A DNA stretch of 64,000 nt from Chthonomonas calidirosea T49 (GTDB taxonomy: Bacteria > Armatimonadota > Chthonomonadetes > Chthonomonadales > Chthonomonadaceae). Where the stretch lies: positions 2,563,325 to 2,627,324 of the forward strand of contig NC_021487.1 in NCBI RefSeq assembly GCF_000427095.1, read 5' to 3'. The notes under the pieces were generated by a model. That model was not told where the DNA came from. It searched no databases and was given only the letters and a program-made list of their open reading frames with translations. Positions within the stretch are counted from its first letter, which is position 1, and each line of letters opens with the position of its first letter. Positions 13,317 to 19,194 of this stretch are shown one piece after another. The position numbers and the translations under genes are program-made.

Positions 13317-13670
13317 AACAAAAACCTTAAGTTTGATAGGCCTCCTTCCCTCACCATGGCGCTTGAGGCCCTTCAGTAGCCCAAGGAAGGAGGTTGTTTT
13401 CAATACACGGCGCTCTGTTACGTAGGAAGTATACCGCAATCTGTTGCGTGATTTCGACTTTTGTCCCCCCTTAGCTTCCTCGATGCTAGGGCAAGTTGGC
13501 AGGGCAGGGTCATCTTATCCGTCCCTGTCCGATCCTCCCTGGAGCGTCGGCTTGACATTGTTGGGTAGGAGGTTGCCATCGGCAAAGGCGCCGCTTGTAA
13601 GGGCGCTCACCGCTACATGCTCCGTTCCCTAAGGAATGGGTCATGGCTGTAGGTGTAAGAAACAACAAAA
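13317..13670. other. Intergenic stretch upstream of queA
   Basis: No gene is supported here. On the minus strand TATACT at 13436-13431 is a possible -10 for queA, with AGGAGG at about 13346 too far from the start to serve as its ribosome site. A plus-strand TTGACA at 13552 has no matching -10. Confidence 0.4.
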
Positions 13671-13702
13671 ACCTCCCTCATCTACATTATGATGAGGAAG
13701 GT
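13671..13702 (-). terminator. Intrinsic terminator after the aldo/keto reductase
   Basis: A 12-bp stem (ACCTTCCTCATC paired with GATGAGGGAGGT on the minus strand, one mismatch) with an 8-base loop is followed by TTTTGTTGTT. It lies 25 bases beyond the reductase stop. Confidence 0.8.
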
Positions 13703-13726
13703 ATCATCGTCGAAAATATAACTTTT

Positions 13727-14737
13727 TTAAGCGTAGATTTTCTGTATATCGAAACCATCGCGTTGAGAGACTTGAGGACTGACGGCTCCGATATTCTCCT
13801 CGAACGTTTGCAAATTACCCAGAGCGGTAACGCAGGTGTGGAAGATCGGCTTACCGTCGGGGCGCTTTCGCGAGAGCGTGTAACGAAGAAGCGCTCGCCC
13901 TGGCTGCCCCGGTGCATTCCACTCCTGCATGAACTGATCGTTGATTCGGCCATGACCATGATCGAAGACTTTCATGGCCGTCATGCCGATGCCGGCTTTG
14001 CTAGCTTCAGCAAACACCTTCTCGGTTTCCGGTGCTGTGCCGTAGCTAAACCACACCTGCATGGCATCAATATTGCCTCCCTCGATCTCGGCCGAGATGA
14101 TATCCGGATAGGGCACGTAGGGATGTTGAGAGACCCCGAAGTAGCGCACCTTGCCCTCTCTTTTGAGTCGTTTGAAGACCTGATAGGAGACGTTATGGAT
14201 GCGGTAGGCATCTACGGTTTTCCAGCCAAAGTGGGCGCGAAAGATGTCGTAGTACTTTAGCCCGTTCTGCTCGAGCGACGAAACCACCTGGTTGTAGGCT
14301 CGGTCGTAGTCGTCGGGATGATCGGGGGTATTGTCTACGGTGATATCACAGTAGAAGGACTCACGTGGCAGTCTCTTAATGACATCGGGGATGTTCTGTC
14401 CCCAGTAGCCCGCTTTGTGGATGAAGTTAATGCCCAACGCGAGGGCAGGAGCAAAGAGTTCCGGGTTCCAGTCGTAGCAGATGCAAACGGGGGTTACCAT
14501 CATGTGTCCGAGGCGAGTACCGAAGGGCCGTTTCGGCAGCTTACCGAAGGCCGCCACGATGGCCTCTGCGGCCTCAGCGCGCTGACTACGGGTGAGGGAG
14601 ATACCGGAAAGTGTGGCCGAAATGAGGCCAGGGCCGGCAGCGGTTGCAACCGTGAGGGCACGCATGAACTCGCGTCGCGTTAGCGGTCTTTCCTTGCTCT
14701 TCTCACGAAGATGGGAAAGCAGTTCTGGATCCTGCAT
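13727..14737 (-). CDS. Tat-exported aldo/keto reductase family protein
   Basis: 336 residues from MQDPELL, chosen for AGGAGGAACG upstream. Residues about 17-50 are a twin-arginine signal (RPLTRREFMRALTVATAAG, then a hydrophobic stretch ending AEA), so the folded enzyme goes outside the inner membrane. The rest is an aldo/keto reductase barrel: FGTRLGHMMVTPV, INFIHKAGYWGQN (the conserved Tyr region), YYDIFRAHFGW, GKVRYFGVSQH, and TAMKVFDHG. Periplasmic reductases of this kind are known from twin-arginine families, but their substrates are largely unknown. Preceded by a consensus promoter at 14901-14929, with a leader of about 155 bases. Confidence 0.86.
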   Translation of the reverse strand: MQDPELLSHLREKSKERPLTRREFMRALTVATAAGPGLISATLSGISLTRSQRAEAAEAIVAAFGKLPKRPFGTRLGHMMVTPVCICYDWNPELFAPALALGINFIHKAGYWGQNIPDVIKRLPRESFYCDITVDNTPDHPDDYDRAYNQVVSSLEQNGLKYYDIFRAHFGWKTVDAYRIHNVSYQVFKRLKREGKVRYFGVSQHPYVPYPDIISAEIEGGNIDAMQVWFSYGTAPETEKVFAEASKAGIGMTAMKVFDHGHGRINDQFMQEWNAPGQPGRALLRYTLSRKRPDGKPIFHTCVTALGNLQTFEENIGAVSPQVSQRDGFDIQKIYA

Positions 14738-14900
14738 AATCGTTCCTCCTTTGTCAATCCTCTTGCGGGGTTCCGAATAGGAGTGTAGCCCTCGGCAAGA
14801 GCGAAAGAAGCGTTTGTTAAAAAGCAGCTCGATTAGGATAATAGCGCCCTTATGCCTTAAATTAAAAAAGAAAAAGTGCTCCAAAACCGATCACACTATT

Positions 14901-14929
14901 ATTGTAACGTACGTGCACGCAATTGTCAA
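14901..14929 (-). promoter_or_regulatory. Sigma-70 promoter of the aldo/keto reductase
   Basis: Minus strand: TTGACA at 14929-14924, exactly 17 bases, then TACAAT at 14906-14901. The predicted start near 14894 gives a leader of about 155 bases before the ATG at 14737. The promoter faces away from mutS, which has its own. Confidence 0.85.
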
Positions 14930-14988
14930 GTTCTTGCAATTGTCGACTCGCCGAGTTCCTTCGAAAAGTCCAAACCGGCGATCCCAAC

Positions 14989-15017
14989 TTGACGTTTTCC
15001 TTGTGAATAAGTAGAAT
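14989..15017 (+). promoter_or_regulatory. Sigma-70 promoter placing the mutS ATG at the transcript start
   Basis: TTGACG at 14989-14994, 17-base spacer, TAGAAT at 15012-15017. The transcription start should fall at about 15023-15025, and the mutS ATG is at 15025. There is no purine-rich ribosome site between, so the mRNA looks leaderless. Confidence 0.75.
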
Positions 15018-15024
15018 ACGCAGC

Positions 15025-17709
15025 ATGTCGGACTCAGATGTTTTGCCCACTTCGGAAAAAGCGACGGTAGAGCCGTTCCCGTCGAACTATGTAGGGCGCA
15101 CGCCGCTGTTAAAGCAGTATTTTACTACCCGTAGCGAGCGTCCGGGGGTCATTTTGCTGATGCGTGTAGGCGACTTCTTCGAGGCCTACGGGGAGGACGC
15201 GGAGATCATTGCGCATGAGCTGCAGATCGCCCTTACGGGTCGTGATGACGGAGGCGTACGGGTGCCGATGGCCGGTGTGCCCTATCACTCTGTGGAACGC
15301 TATATTGCTCGGCTCATCGCGCGGGGCCATCGTGTGGCCCTCATGGATCAGGTAGAGGACCCCCGATTTGCCAAAGGGCTGGTGAAGCGGAAGGTCACGC
15401 GGGTCGTTACCCCCGGCACCGTGCTGGAAGACGCCATGCTCGATTCGCGCAGCAACAACTACCTTGTGGCGGCCGTTATCGGAGACCCGGTGGCCGGGGT
15501 GGGCGTGGTGGATGTCTCTACAGGGGAGTTTCTTACCACAGAGATCGAAGGAGAGCGACGCAAGGAGCGACTTCTTGAGGAGATCGCACGACTTGAGCCG
15601 GCGGAGATTTTAGTGCCAGAGGGGGTAGATGCGGAGCTGATTGAGGCCATCAAGGCCACCTGCACCGGTTCAGTAACTGTTATGCCGAGATCGGAGGGAG
15701 GGCAACGCTCCACCAGCACGGATAGTCGGCAGCTGCTGTTGGCCCATTTCCAAACGCAGTCGCTGCGCGGCTTCGGCTGTGAGGAGTATACGGCTGGCAT
15801 AGATGCCTGCGCGCTCATTCTGCGCTACCTCCGCCAGACACAAATGGGGGCACTGGCGCATATTCGTAGCCTCGCCACTTACTCCACCGAGGAGTTCATG
15901 ACGCTAGACTCGGCAGCACGACGTCATCTTGAACTTCTCGCCCCCATGGGCGATGGTGGTAGGCAACGCACGTTATTGGGCGTTTTAGACGAGACCCTCA
16001 CCCCCATGGGAGGCCGTCTGCTGAAGCGATGGATCGAGGAGCCGCTGCTGGAAGTGGGGCGTATTCAACGGCGCCAAGAAGCTGTGGAGGAGCTGGTGCG
16101 GGACCCCATTCGCAGAGGAGATCTACGCGATCTTCTGAGAGGAATGGGCGACATCGAGCGTCTTGTGAGCCGTGCGGCCGCGGGGCTGGCTAACGCCCGC
16201 GATCTGGTGGCCTTGCGCAATGCGCTGCTTCGGCTACCCAACATCGCTACCGTGCTCGCTGGTGCCCGCAGCGAAAAACTGCGCGATCTGGCCTCTCGTC
16301 TCGCGTGCCCGCTGGACATCGTGGAGCGAATCGGTCGAGCTATTCAAGACGACCCTCCGGCCGGCTTGCGCGAGGGAGGGCTTATCCGTCCCGGCTATCA
16401 TGCGGAGCTAGACAAACTGCGCGCTGTCTCCGCCGATGCGAAGGGCTATATCGCCAACTTGGAGGCCACCGAGCGGGAACGTACCGGCATCGCTTCGTTG
16501 AAAGTCGGCTACAACGCTGTGTTCGGCTACTACATCGAGGTGACCAAGGCCAACCTCTCCAAAGTGCCAAGCAACTACCTACGCAAGCAGACCACGGTGA
16601 ACGCCGAGCGCTACATCACACCTGAACTCAAGGAGTATGAAGCGCTTGTTTTGGGAGCTGAGGAAAAGGCGATTGAACTGGAGTATGAGCTGTTTCTCGG
16701 CGTACGCGAGCGGGTTGGTGAAGCGGCTCCCGAAGTGCTGGCTGTAGCGCGCGCGGTGGCCGAGCTCGATGTGCTGGCAAGCTTTGCCGAAACGGCCGTA
16801 CGCCACCGTTATGTGCGTCCGGAAGTACATGAGGGCGACTCGATCCATATTCTCGGCGGACGCCACCCCGTCATCGAGCGCATCGGCCTCGGAGGCGACT
16901 ACATTCCCAACGATTGTCACCTTGATGAAGAGAACCGGTTGCTCATCATCACAGGCCCCAACATGAGCGGAAAATCCTCTTACCTCCGTCAAACCGCTTT
17001 GATCGTGCTTCTAGCCCAGATCGGCAGCTTCGTGCCGGCCGACTCGGCCTCCATCGGCATTGTAGATCGCATCTTCACTCGCGTGGGCGCCCATGATGAG
17101 CTTGCTAGCGGCCAATCCACGTTTATGGTGGAGATGAGCGAGACGGCCAACATTTTGAACAATGCCACCGCCCGCAGTCTCGTGATCCTGGATGAGATAG
17201 GGCGTGGCACCAGCACCTACGATGGCCTCTCTATCGCGTGGGCGGTAGCAGAATATCTCGTGCAGATCGGCTGTAAAACACTCTTCGCTACACACTACCA
17301 TCATCTCAACGAGCTGGCCAATCGCTATCCGGTGGTAAAGAACTTTCGGGTGGCCGTTCGGGAACAAGGAGAGCATATTATTTGGTTAAGAAAATTAGTA
17401 CCGGGCGGAACCGATAAGAGCTATGGGATTCAGGTAGCCCGTATGGCCGGTGTGCCCCTAGAGGTGGTAGAGCGGGCAAAAGAGATACTCAAAAGCCTTG
17501 AAAAGGGTAGCGCCGGGGTCACACGCGATATTGTGGATAGTGGTCAACAGGTTCCTGAACGCAAGCAGAAGCTGCAGCTTACGCTGTTTGAACCCGAGCG
17601 GCATCCCATTCTAGAGGAGTTGGAGGCGCTCGACATCACCACAATGACCCCGATGGAAGCGCTGATGAAGATAGAGGCATGGCGTCGGCAGTTGAAACAG
17701 GGGAGATAG
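15025..17709 (+). CDS. mutS: DNA mismatch repair protein MutS
   Basis: 894 residues; the mismatch sensor of post-replicative repair, an ATPase dimer that recruits MutL. The mismatch-binding domain has the Phe-x-Glu motif as GDFFEAYGEDA (residues about 50-60). The C-terminal ABC ATPase carries Walker A GPNMSGKSSYLRQ, the signature STFMVEMSETANIL, Walker B LVILDEIGRGTSTYDG and ATHYHHL. The final stretch has LTLFEPERHP and a helical tail ending in WRRQLKQGR, as in full-length MutS. No upstream ribosome site, so leaderless translation is likely. The ECF sigma gene begins 35 bases after the stop, possibly by read-through. Confidence 0.97.
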   Translation: MSDSDVLPTSEKATVEPFPSNYVGRTPLLKQYFTTRSERPGVILLMRVGDFFEAYGEDAEIIAHELQIALTGRDDGGVRVPMAGVPYHSVERYIARLIARGHRVALMDQVEDPRFAKGLVKRKVTRVVTPGTVLEDAMLDSRSNNYLVAAVIGDPVAGVGVVDVSTGEFLTTEIEGERRKERLLEEIARLEPAEILVPEGVDAELIEAIKATCTGSVTVMPRSEGGQRSTSTDSRQLLLAHFQTQSLRGFGCEEYTAGIDACALILRYLRQTQMGALAHIRSLATYSTEEFMTLDSAARRHLELLAPMGDGGRQRTLLGVLDETLTPMGGRLLKRWIEEPLLEVGRIQRRQEAVEELVRDPIRRGDLRDLLRGMGDIERLVSRAAAGLANARDLVALRNALLRLPNIATVLAGARSEKLRDLASRLACPLDIVERIGRAIQDDPPAGLREGGLIRPGYHAELDKLRAVSADAKGYIANLEATERERTGIASLKVGYNAVFGYYIEVTKANLSKVPSNYLRKQTTVNAERYITPELKEYEALVLGAEEKAIELEYELFLGVRERVGEAAPEVLAVARAVAELDVLASFAETAVRHRYVRPEVHEGDSIHILGGRHPVIERIGLGGDYIPNDCHLDEENRLLIITGPNMSGKSSYLRQTALIVLLAQIGSFVPADSASIGIVDRIFTRVGAHDELASGQSTFMVEMSETANILNNATARSLVILDEIGRGTSTYDGLSIAWAVAEYLVQIGCKTLFATHYHHLNELANRYPVVKNFRVAVREQGEHIIWLRKLVPGGTDKSYGIQVARMAGVPLEVVERAKEILKSLEKGSAGVTRDIVDSGQQVPERKQKLQLTLFEPERHPILEELEALDITTMTPMEALMKIEAWRRQLKQGR

Positions 17710-17744: not shown

Positions 17745-18305
17745 ATGGATCTTTTTAGCAAAAGTCGGAGTCGTCGTTTTGAGCAGTTAGCAAAACCGCT
17801 TTTTAAACCACTCTATCAAGCGGCCCTCAGAATGACGCGCAACCGCGAATGGGCGGAAGATATAACCCAAGAAACGCTGATTCGAGCCTACGAACGCTTC
17901 GATCAGTTTGAAGAGGGAACCAATTTTCGTGCATGGTTGTTTACTATTCTGACAAGAGTTTATATTAACGATTATGAGCGCGGCAAGCGAAGGCCGCTGA
18001 CCACCTCTTTCGATTCGGGGGTGGAGGGCAGTACGTGGGATTTCCCCGCACCGCCGCAGAGCGACCCCGCCGTCCTCCTTACGGAGAACCTTTTAGATGA
18101 AAAGCTCCAAAAAGCGCTCGACAGCTTGCCGGAAGAGTATCGAACGGTCGTGCTGCTGGTAGATGTGGAAGAGCTGAGCTATCAGGAAACGGCGGATGCC
18201 CTCAACATCCCTGTGGGAACGGTGCGTTCCCGTGTGTCGCGAGGACGAGCGTTGTTGCGCCAAATGCTGACCGGTACGGAGCCGACGGCGCGCAAACAAT
18301 CGTGA
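17745..18305 (+). CDS. RNA polymerase sigma factor, ECF type
   Basis: 186 residues. Region 2 (residues about 20-85) has LYQAALRMTRNREWAEDITQ ETLIRAY-type sequence with the DITQET core motif and FRAWLFTILTRVYIND. Region 4 (about 120-175) has LDSLPEEYRTVVLLVDVEEL and a helix-turn-helix ALNIPVGTVRSRVSRGRALL. It directs polymerase to a small stress-type regulon. Followed after 52 bases by a zinc-type anti-sigma factor, the usual partner arrangement. Downstream of mutS by 35 bases. I cannot tell the signal sensed. Confidence 0.93.
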   Translation: MDLFSKSRSRRFEQLAKPLFKPLYQAALRMTRNREWAEDITQETLIRAYERFDQFEEGTNFRAWLFTILTRVYINDYERGKRRPLTTSFDSGVEGSTWDFPAPPQSDPAVLLTENLLDEKLQKALDSLPEEYRTVVLLVDVEELSYQETADALNIPVGTVRSRVSRGRALLRQMLTGTEPTARKQS

Positions 18306-18357
18306 GCTGTAAAATACAAGGAAAGCACGCACTACTACGTGTCGTTATCAGAAGACC

Positions 18358-19194
18358 ATGAGTCACAATGAGAATGAGGCCGAGGCGATGAAGGGTTCGT
18401 GCGGGGAAATGCACGACCTCCTCGCTGCCTACGTGGACGGAGCGCTACCGGAAGACCTCCACGAACAAGTGAAGAAGCACCTAGAGGTATGCTCCTCCTG
18501 TTATGAGGAGTCGAAAGGCCTCGCAGAGATACGTCAGCACCTGCGTGCCCTTCGTGTTCATCAACGCCACATCGAGCCGGCTCCGCATGTGTGGCGCGAA
18601 GCCCAACGCGTTTGGAGACGCAGAGAGCGGCTTGAACGCGCGCGATTCGCCTGGCGTCCAGCACTAGCCTTCTCCATGTTACTGCTTGCCATCTTTAGCT
18701 TTGTCTGGGCACGCCTTAATAGCCCCGATATCTTCCCCGTGCGCGCCGCTCTTCAGGACTTTGAGCAGGTGGAGCGAACGGTGGTTCAACCGGCCTTTGC
18801 GCAGCCAAACCCCGACCGCGCTGCGGTTTGGCTGCGCGATCGCCTGCACGCCAACGTCCCGCCTATTAACCTTTCACTCTCGCGTGGAGAGCTCTTGGGG
18901 GCCGATGTCGTCTCTCTCGATGGTGTGGCCGCTGCTCGTCTGCTCTACCGCACCCCACATGGGCTTGTGGGCATCTACATTGTGCCCCATCACGGGCGGT
19001 TCGGCTCCTCGCTAAGCACCTTGGCATTAAATCGGAGGCGATTTTACACTATGTCTCCGCCAAAAGGCCCTGTGCTTTACGCCTGGTCGCGCGATGGCAC
19101 TGGCTATGCCCTGCTTGTGGATCGGCATAGTGTGCCGCGCGACACGTTGCTCAATGCGGCGCAGGCCACCGATCCGCCTGGCTCGACACCCTAA
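18358..19194 (+). CDS. Anti-sigma factor with zinc-binding (ZAS) domain and one membrane helix
   Basis: 278 residues. The N-terminal CGEMHDLLAAYVDGALP and later HLEVCSSC give the H-X3-C-X2-C zinc motif of anti-sigma domains that hold an ECF sigma factor inactive. A charged linker is followed by a membrane helix (residues about 100-118, LAFSMLLLAIFSFVW) and a C-terminal region of about 155 residues facing outside the membrane. The ATG at 18358 has no clear ribosome site; the ATG at 18388 (GAGG eight bases upstream) is a good alternative and would remove 10 residues. Co-transcribed with the sigma gene; the outer part presumably senses an envelope signal (inference). Confidence 0.88.
   Translation: MSHNENEAEAMKGSCGEMHDLLAAYVDGALPEDLHEQVKKHLEVCSSCYEESKGLAEIRQHLRALRVHQRHIEPAPHVWREAQRVWRRRERLERARFAWRPALAFSMLLLAIFSFVWARLNSPDIFPVRAALQDFEQVERTVVQPAFAQPNPDRAAVWLRDRLHANVPPINLSLSRGELLGADVVSLDGVAAARLLYRTPHGLVGIYIVPHHGRFGSSLSTLALNRRRFYTMSPPKGPVLYAWSRDGTGYALLVDRHSVPRDTLLNAAQATDPPGSTP

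Follow-up and report, generated by a model that had tools for sequence, protein, structure and literature searches.

A near-consensus promoter abutting the mutS start codon predicts a leaderless mRNA in Chthonomonas calidirosea and in most mutS genes compared across its order

Leaderless genes are well known as a kind, the 5'-AUG/70S route of initiation on their mRNAs is established, and they prefer AUG as the start codon. They are usually described as the genome-wide habit of a phylum, whereas the case reported here is specific to one gene, mutS, which sets the mutation rate. In Deinococcus-Thermus, genes with a "-10 region adjacent to ORF" carry TANNNT about 6 to 7 bp before the start codon, lack a ribosome site, and give leaderless mRNA; this type makes up almost a third of the genes of D. 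radiodurans, with no pathway bias (PMC12340547). About one quarter of Mycobacterium smegmatis transcripts are leaderless, according to a paper that surveys 260 prokaryotes (PMC5397173). The M. smegmatis gene nucS has a transcription start that coincides with its translation start by 5' RACE, and the nucS level drops in stationary phase (PMC12649562). The main text of the Deinococcus-Thermus paper mentions neither "mutS" nor "Armatimon," and neither term occurs in the main text of the survey. Moreover, among the open-licence papers listed for leaderless genes together with mutS, Armatimonadetes, Chthonomonas, or Fimbriimonas, no title or abstract start described such a mutS start.

The window is a stretch of 64,000 nucleotides, positions 2563325 to 2627324 of the single-contig genome (3437861 bases) of C. 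calidirosea T49, a bacterium of hot soil. The genome is described as having 3,437,861 bp, 54.41% G+C, and 2,877 genes (PMC4959169), and G+C was 54% in our gene-called sample. An earlier note on this DNA had proposed that mutS is leaderless and sits beside a divergent consensus promoter that drives an aldo/keto reductase gene. The features at issue, in window positions, are as follows.

14989..14994, forward strand: -35 box of the mutS promoter, TTGACG (sequence and promoter scan)
15012..15017, forward strand: -10 box of the mutS promoter, TAGAAT, followed by 7 nt (ACGCAGC) and then ATG 15025
15023..15025, forward strand: predicted mutS transcription start, leader of 0 to 2 nt, estimated from the typical distance between -10 box and +1
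15025..17709, forward strand: mutS coding sequence, 894 aa; five MutS domains, the complete set in Pfam
14901..14929, reverse strand: divergent promoter of the aldo/keto reductase, TTGACA-N17-TACAAT, -35 box at 14929-14924 and -10 box at 14906-14901, 11/12 consensus
14738..14894, reverse strand: predicted reductase leader of about 157 nt, from the promoter-to-ATG distance
14745..14752, reverse strand: Shine-Dalgarno (SD) sequence of the reductase, AAAGGAGG, -12.1 kcal/mol
13727..14737, reverse strand: aldo/keto reductase coding sequence, ATG 14737, 336 aa; PF00248
14920..14942, reverse strand: near-palindrome CAATTGTCAAGTTCTTGCAATTG, covering the reductase -35 box; possible operator

The TTGACG-N17-TAGAAT promoter that the earlier note had read ahead of mutS spans 14989 to 15017 and stops 7 nt short of the ATG. 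In a scan of 13500 to 16500, it matched consensus at 10 of 12 positions with a 17-nt spacer, and it and the divergent reductase promoter took the top two scores; the scan returned four promoter-like sites, compared to 1.4 +/- 1.2 in shuffles. The note's claim that mutS lacks a ribosome site also held, as judged by duplex energy with the 16S tail: no SD site lies upstream of ATG 15025, where the duplex reaches only -1.3 kcal/mol. That value is among the weakest tenth of sampled starts, and 92% of 334 sampled genes reach -1.3 kcal/mol or stronger. Both 16S genes of the genome retain the complete anti-SD tail GGATCACCTCCTTTCT. The predicted start at ATG 15025 is well fixed, because the reading frame has a stop 21 nt upstream and only one other in-frame start, an SD-less TTG at 15043, six codons in, precedes the conserved MutS domain I.

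How unusual such a start is for this genome was estimated from the window plus 20 spaced stretches, together 464 of 3438 kb and 334 genes, called with a home-made gene caller that places starts by codon use alone. The earlier note had proposed counting leaderless genes genome-wide. In the sample, a promoter of at least 9/12 lay 3 to 12 nt ahead of the start in three of the 334 genes: mutS, a squalene/phytoene synthase gene preceded by an SD, and a Rex-like gene with a doubtful start. No enrichment of -10 boxes close to starts was seen across the 334 genes, with 0.86 per position at 5 to 11 nt versus 3.4 per position at 25 to 59 nt. An SD duplex of -5 kcal/mol or better was found at 64% of sampled starts versus 27 to 28% of background positions. 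Across the whole genome, the pattern TTGAC-N17-19-TAxxxT-N5-10-ATG, which would miss leaderless genes with a weak -35 box outside the 464-kb sample, had 28 matches versus 13 for the reversed pattern, and open reading frames (ORFs) of more than 200 aa followed three of the 28: mutS, the Rex-like gene, and an ABC ATPase. Nine relatives in the order gave a similar picture, with abutting promoters at 7 of 459 sampled genes, five of the seven being mutS, although that sample was sited on contigs of known length, mostly those bearing mutS. Three relatives (G001, G026, and G032) had mutS inside a sampled stretch, yet it was not among the matches, and in G008 mutS lay at a stretch edge. Two further genomes of the phylum gave 2 of 88, with mutS in neither.

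Three other genes were considered. The Rex-like gene (L128; Rex by eye) was rejected as a second conserved leaderless gene, as its orthologs seem to start about 24 codons later. Among 28 loci from relatives, most offered no usable start before about residue 24 to 28, where the start codon was mostly TTG or GTG and often had an SD-like duplex, and a -10 box preceded one alternative GTG only in G022, G023, and G026, with a -35 of 2/6. An 88-aa cold-shock-like ORF (L136) was also set aside, as by eye it appears leadered with an internal ATG start. Separately, an ABC-transporter ATPase gene (by eye; L139, contig C1 near 347712 of the same genome) has TTGACT-17-TAAAAT 7 nt before its ATG, and none of the nearby starts has an SD. 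It may be a second leaderless gene of the genome.

Perhaps the mutS promoter is real but transcription starts further upstream, and the resulting leadered mRNA is translated by a route other than an SD, such as S1 or a lack of structure around the start. Another promoter-like site, weaker than the first (14814 to 14842, 9/12), is consistent with such a leader, and leadered genes without an SD probably exist in this genome, given that 36% of sampled starts have duplexes weaker than -5 kcal/mol. Promoters of leadered genes, however, need not sit at any fixed distance from the start, and of the 30 promoter-like sites found up to 100 nt from sampled starts, 19 were at 30 to 59 nt upstream and just three at 5 to 9 nt. 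The orthologs described next, in which the -10 box is 6 to 10 nt from the ATG in all 19 box-bearing genes, further argue against this alternative, and we consider it unlikely.

Forty-one genomes were searched for mutS, 31 of them Chthonomonadales, counting that of C. calidirosea, and seven genomes of the order (G006, G009, G014, G016, G023, G027, and G030) were left out because they offered no usable mutS N-terminal start. A TAxxxT -10 box lay 6 to 10 nt ahead of the ATG in 19 of the 24 mutS genes of the order whose upstream DNA could be read. Promoter-abutting mutS occurred in 12 of 16 genera and in three families. A TTGACG or TTGACC -35 box at 17 to 18 bp accompanied the -10 box in 16 of the 24, all scoring at least 9/12, and the other three of the 19 scored 8/12 (one gene) and 7/12 (two); the -35 box was poor in G004, G022, and G026, the last scoring 7/12. 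Across 15 nonredundant genomes, the boxes were 87% and 86% identical and the spacer was 31% identical, values in which box identity is inflated, and part of the contrast with the spacer arises by construction, because the hexamers were picked for consensus likeness. Such picking does not explain the shared nonconsensus G that closes the -35 box.

A promoter-like string might simply have fallen beside mutS in one genome by chance, and hexamer matches are common enough that the reversed pattern finds 13 in the genome. The same layout in 18 further genomes contradicts this account. Moreover, when each of the 19 chosen upstream sequences was shuffled 500 times, preserving base content only, a -10-like hexamer appeared 5 to 11 nt from the start in 5.2% of shuffles and a promoter of at least 9/12 in 0.2%, compared to 19 and 16, respectively, of 24 real orthologs. 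We regard chance as hardly credible.

Placement of ortholog starts bears on these counts. Seven of the 24 starts were first placed automatically at an internal ATG (G005, G008, G017, G019, G021, G026, and G029); all were reset by hand except that of G008, which was inspected, and in G029 the start was open to genuine choice. The start codon was ATG in all 19 leaderless-type genes and non-ATG in three of the five others (P = 0.005), in a comparison in which starts were picked by hand and genomes of one order are not independent, so that this and the other Fisher P values ignore relatedness. In G024, a GTG directly precedes the chosen ATG. In G015, G021, G024, and G029, duplex energies of -4.9 to -6.4 were due to G-rich sequence within or upstream of the -10 box, which would amount to a weak SD were transcription to start farther upstream.

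The five mutS genes without an abutting promoter (G001, G003, G008, G011, and G028; loci L009, L011, L012, L013, and L028) share another arrangement, in which an ORF upstream terminates close to the mutS start codon, its stop lying anywhere from 15 nt ahead of that codon to 5 nt past it. Three of the five start with GTG or TTG, and in G001 an SD-like AAGGA lies 6 nt ahead of the GTG. Judged by eye, four of the upstream ORFs resemble bioY and the fifth resembles miaB.

The second mismatch repair gene served as a control. An abutting promoter of at least 8/12 was present at 17 of 24 mutS genes versus 1 of 28 mutL genes (Fisher P = 2e-7, relatedness ignored). In 10 of the 28 cases, mutL follows closely after mutS in the same orientation and needs no promoter of its own, and among the mutL genes not so placed the count was 1 of 18 (P = 2e-5, relatedness ignored). 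The idea of mutL as a second leaderless mismatch repair gene was dropped, with the layout in just 1 of 28. That lone gene (L275, in G006) has TACACT 9 nt before its ATG and a -35 box of 5/6. We note that no true mutS was found in G006, a genome 87% complete. On these comparisons, the predicted layout is a property of mutS in Chthonomonadales, kept while its neighbors change.

The divergent side of the locus is as the earlier note described it: the reductase promoter was located, the predicted leader is long, and the two -35 elements, said to be about 60 bases apart, are separated by 59 nt. The leader also carries a strong SD near its end. The promoter is real, but its pairing with mutS looks incidental. 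Adjacency of the reductase to mutS was found in no locus but this one among 113, a set in which some genomes are duplicated across collections and some flanks are short, and clear reductase orthologs lay on contigs other than that of mutS or, in G001, about 26 kb away. Strong SD duplexes were present at the reductase in 9 of 12 loci, the one in the window included. Divergent pairing was likewise rejected as the cause of the mutS layout, as neither the reductase nor the genes on the far side of mutS were found beside mutS in other loci. Those genes, at 17745 to 19194, encode an ECF sigma factor and a zinc-finger protein (a probable anti-sigma factor); they lie in the same orientation as mutS, starting 35 nt past its end, and might be cotranscribed with it. 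Their adjacency to mutS was not found in the other mutS loci compared, and the ECF sigma query gave two weak matches only (L052 and L100, 29 to 32% identity).

Further features of the reductase side are recorded here. The N terminus of the reductase has RREFM followed by a hydrophobic stretch and is Tat-like by eye. The near-palindrome over its -35 box has one genomic copy at up to three mismatches; alternatively, the region can be read as GCAATTGTC repeated directly at a distance of 17 bp. The leader was rejected as an RNA element, as Rfam had no matches in the window and folding was ordinary (z = -0.67, first codons included).

Leaderless-type starts are more frequent in another genome of the phylum. 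In the Fimbriimonadales genome G041 (loci L205 to L219), a -10 box lay 5 to 11 nt ahead of the start in 40 of 236 sampled genes, with a peak at 6 to 9 nt, where the box was often GGTACAAT or GGTATAAT. Among mutS loci titled Fimbriimonadales, Fimbriimonadia, or Fimbriimonas, seven of nine evaluated had TATAAT 8 to 11 nt before the ATG, the exceptions without the layout being L061 and L065. In Meiothermus, Thermus, and Thermaceae, 12 of 12 evaluated mutS genes had a TAxxAT box 6 to 7 nt before the ATG, some with an SD-like duplex as well. The -35 matches were 1 to 2 of 6 in the seven Fimbriimonadales loci and 2 to 4 of 6 in Thermaceae. Other Armatimonadota were mixed, with a box in L029, L059, and L111 and none in L055, L056, and L058. 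The trait may be old, because mutS also carries close -10 boxes in Fimbriimonadales and Thermaceae. In Chthonomonadales, the leaderless-type mutS start may have been kept, with a stronger -35 box, while most other genes did not keep theirs, or it may have been regained.

Perhaps, then, leaderless starts were common in the ancestor and mutS merely kept one that has no present function. Such a relic is compatible with a leaderless mutS and competes instead with the view that selection maintains it. The abundance of such starts in G041 and the close boxes in Fimbriimonadales-type and Thermaceae mutS are what a relic predicts. A relic should decay, however, as it apparently has in other genes, yet mutS retains the layout in three families. 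Moreover, most Chthonomonadales mutS genes of this type carry a complete TTGACG -35 box, whereas the -35 is poor in the Fimbriimonadales and Thermaceae loci, so that the layout is not simply a frozen copy, and it is missing from L061 and L065 and patchy in other Armatimonadota. A relic is quite possible, but on balance we doubt it.

We conclude that the earlier note's "leaderless mutS" is the best reading of the locus and is strengthened by a promoter and spacing conserved in most of the mutS genes compared across the order. Very probably, mutS is transcribed leaderless from its abutting promoter and selection on mutS itself has kept the layout, an interpretation drawn from sequence comparison. 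Selection on how mutS is expressed is suggested by the persistence of a leaderless-type start on this one gene across an order in which the other sampled genes lack it. A near-consensus housekeeping promoter would abut the start codon, the mRNA would begin at or within about 2 nt of the AUG, and it would presumably be read by the 5'-AUG/70S route rather than by SD contact. Selection probably acts on the amount and steadiness of the MutS made.

Why mutS should be expressed in this way invites speculation. Transcription-heavy, translation-light expression is a known route to steady supply, and small RNAs act on the mutS leader in Escherichia coli. We tentatively suggest, while thinking it rather improbable, that mismatch repair in this order makes functional use of the leaderless start: a strong promoter with SD-independent initiation would give many transcripts and small translation bursts, and so a small, steady supply of MutS in every cell, even when SD-dependent initiation is throttled, with no leader for small RNAs to act on. 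The start would then be a conserved means of holding the mutation rate steady. Under stress, leaderless translation reportedly holds up well in M. tuberculosis (PMC8485053). The consequences of the mutS start type should be measurable, because mutS expression differs between E. coli cells (PMC7200632) and Hfq destabilizes the E. coli mutS transcript (PMC12649562). Chthonomonadales offer a natural contrast, both between mutS and mutL and between leaderless and stop-codon-adjacent mutS in sister genera.

Compared to the known systems, the start of mutS is of a familiar type but its gene-specific setting is unusual, and the arrangement is real and conserved. It resembles the Deinococcus-Thermus genes in having a box close to the start, no ribosome site, and a leaderless mRNA, here predicted, but it differs from them in that the layout is rare, occurs in an SD-using lineage, is conserved on mutS, and mostly includes a full TTGACG -35 box. 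Like nucS, it is a mismatch repair recognition gene with a leaderless start, predicted in the case of mutS. The proteins are unrelated, however, and NucS replaces MutS/MutL in mycobacteria. The nucS case implies nothing gene-specific, because leaderless mRNAs are common in mycobacteria, and the idea of constant supply is weakened because the leaderless nucS falls in stationary phase. A third comparison is with the Fimbriimonadales of the same phylum, in which mutS often has a -10 box 8 to 11 nt before the ATG as well; unlike in Chthonomonadales, many of their genes are leaderless type and the mutS -35 box is poor.
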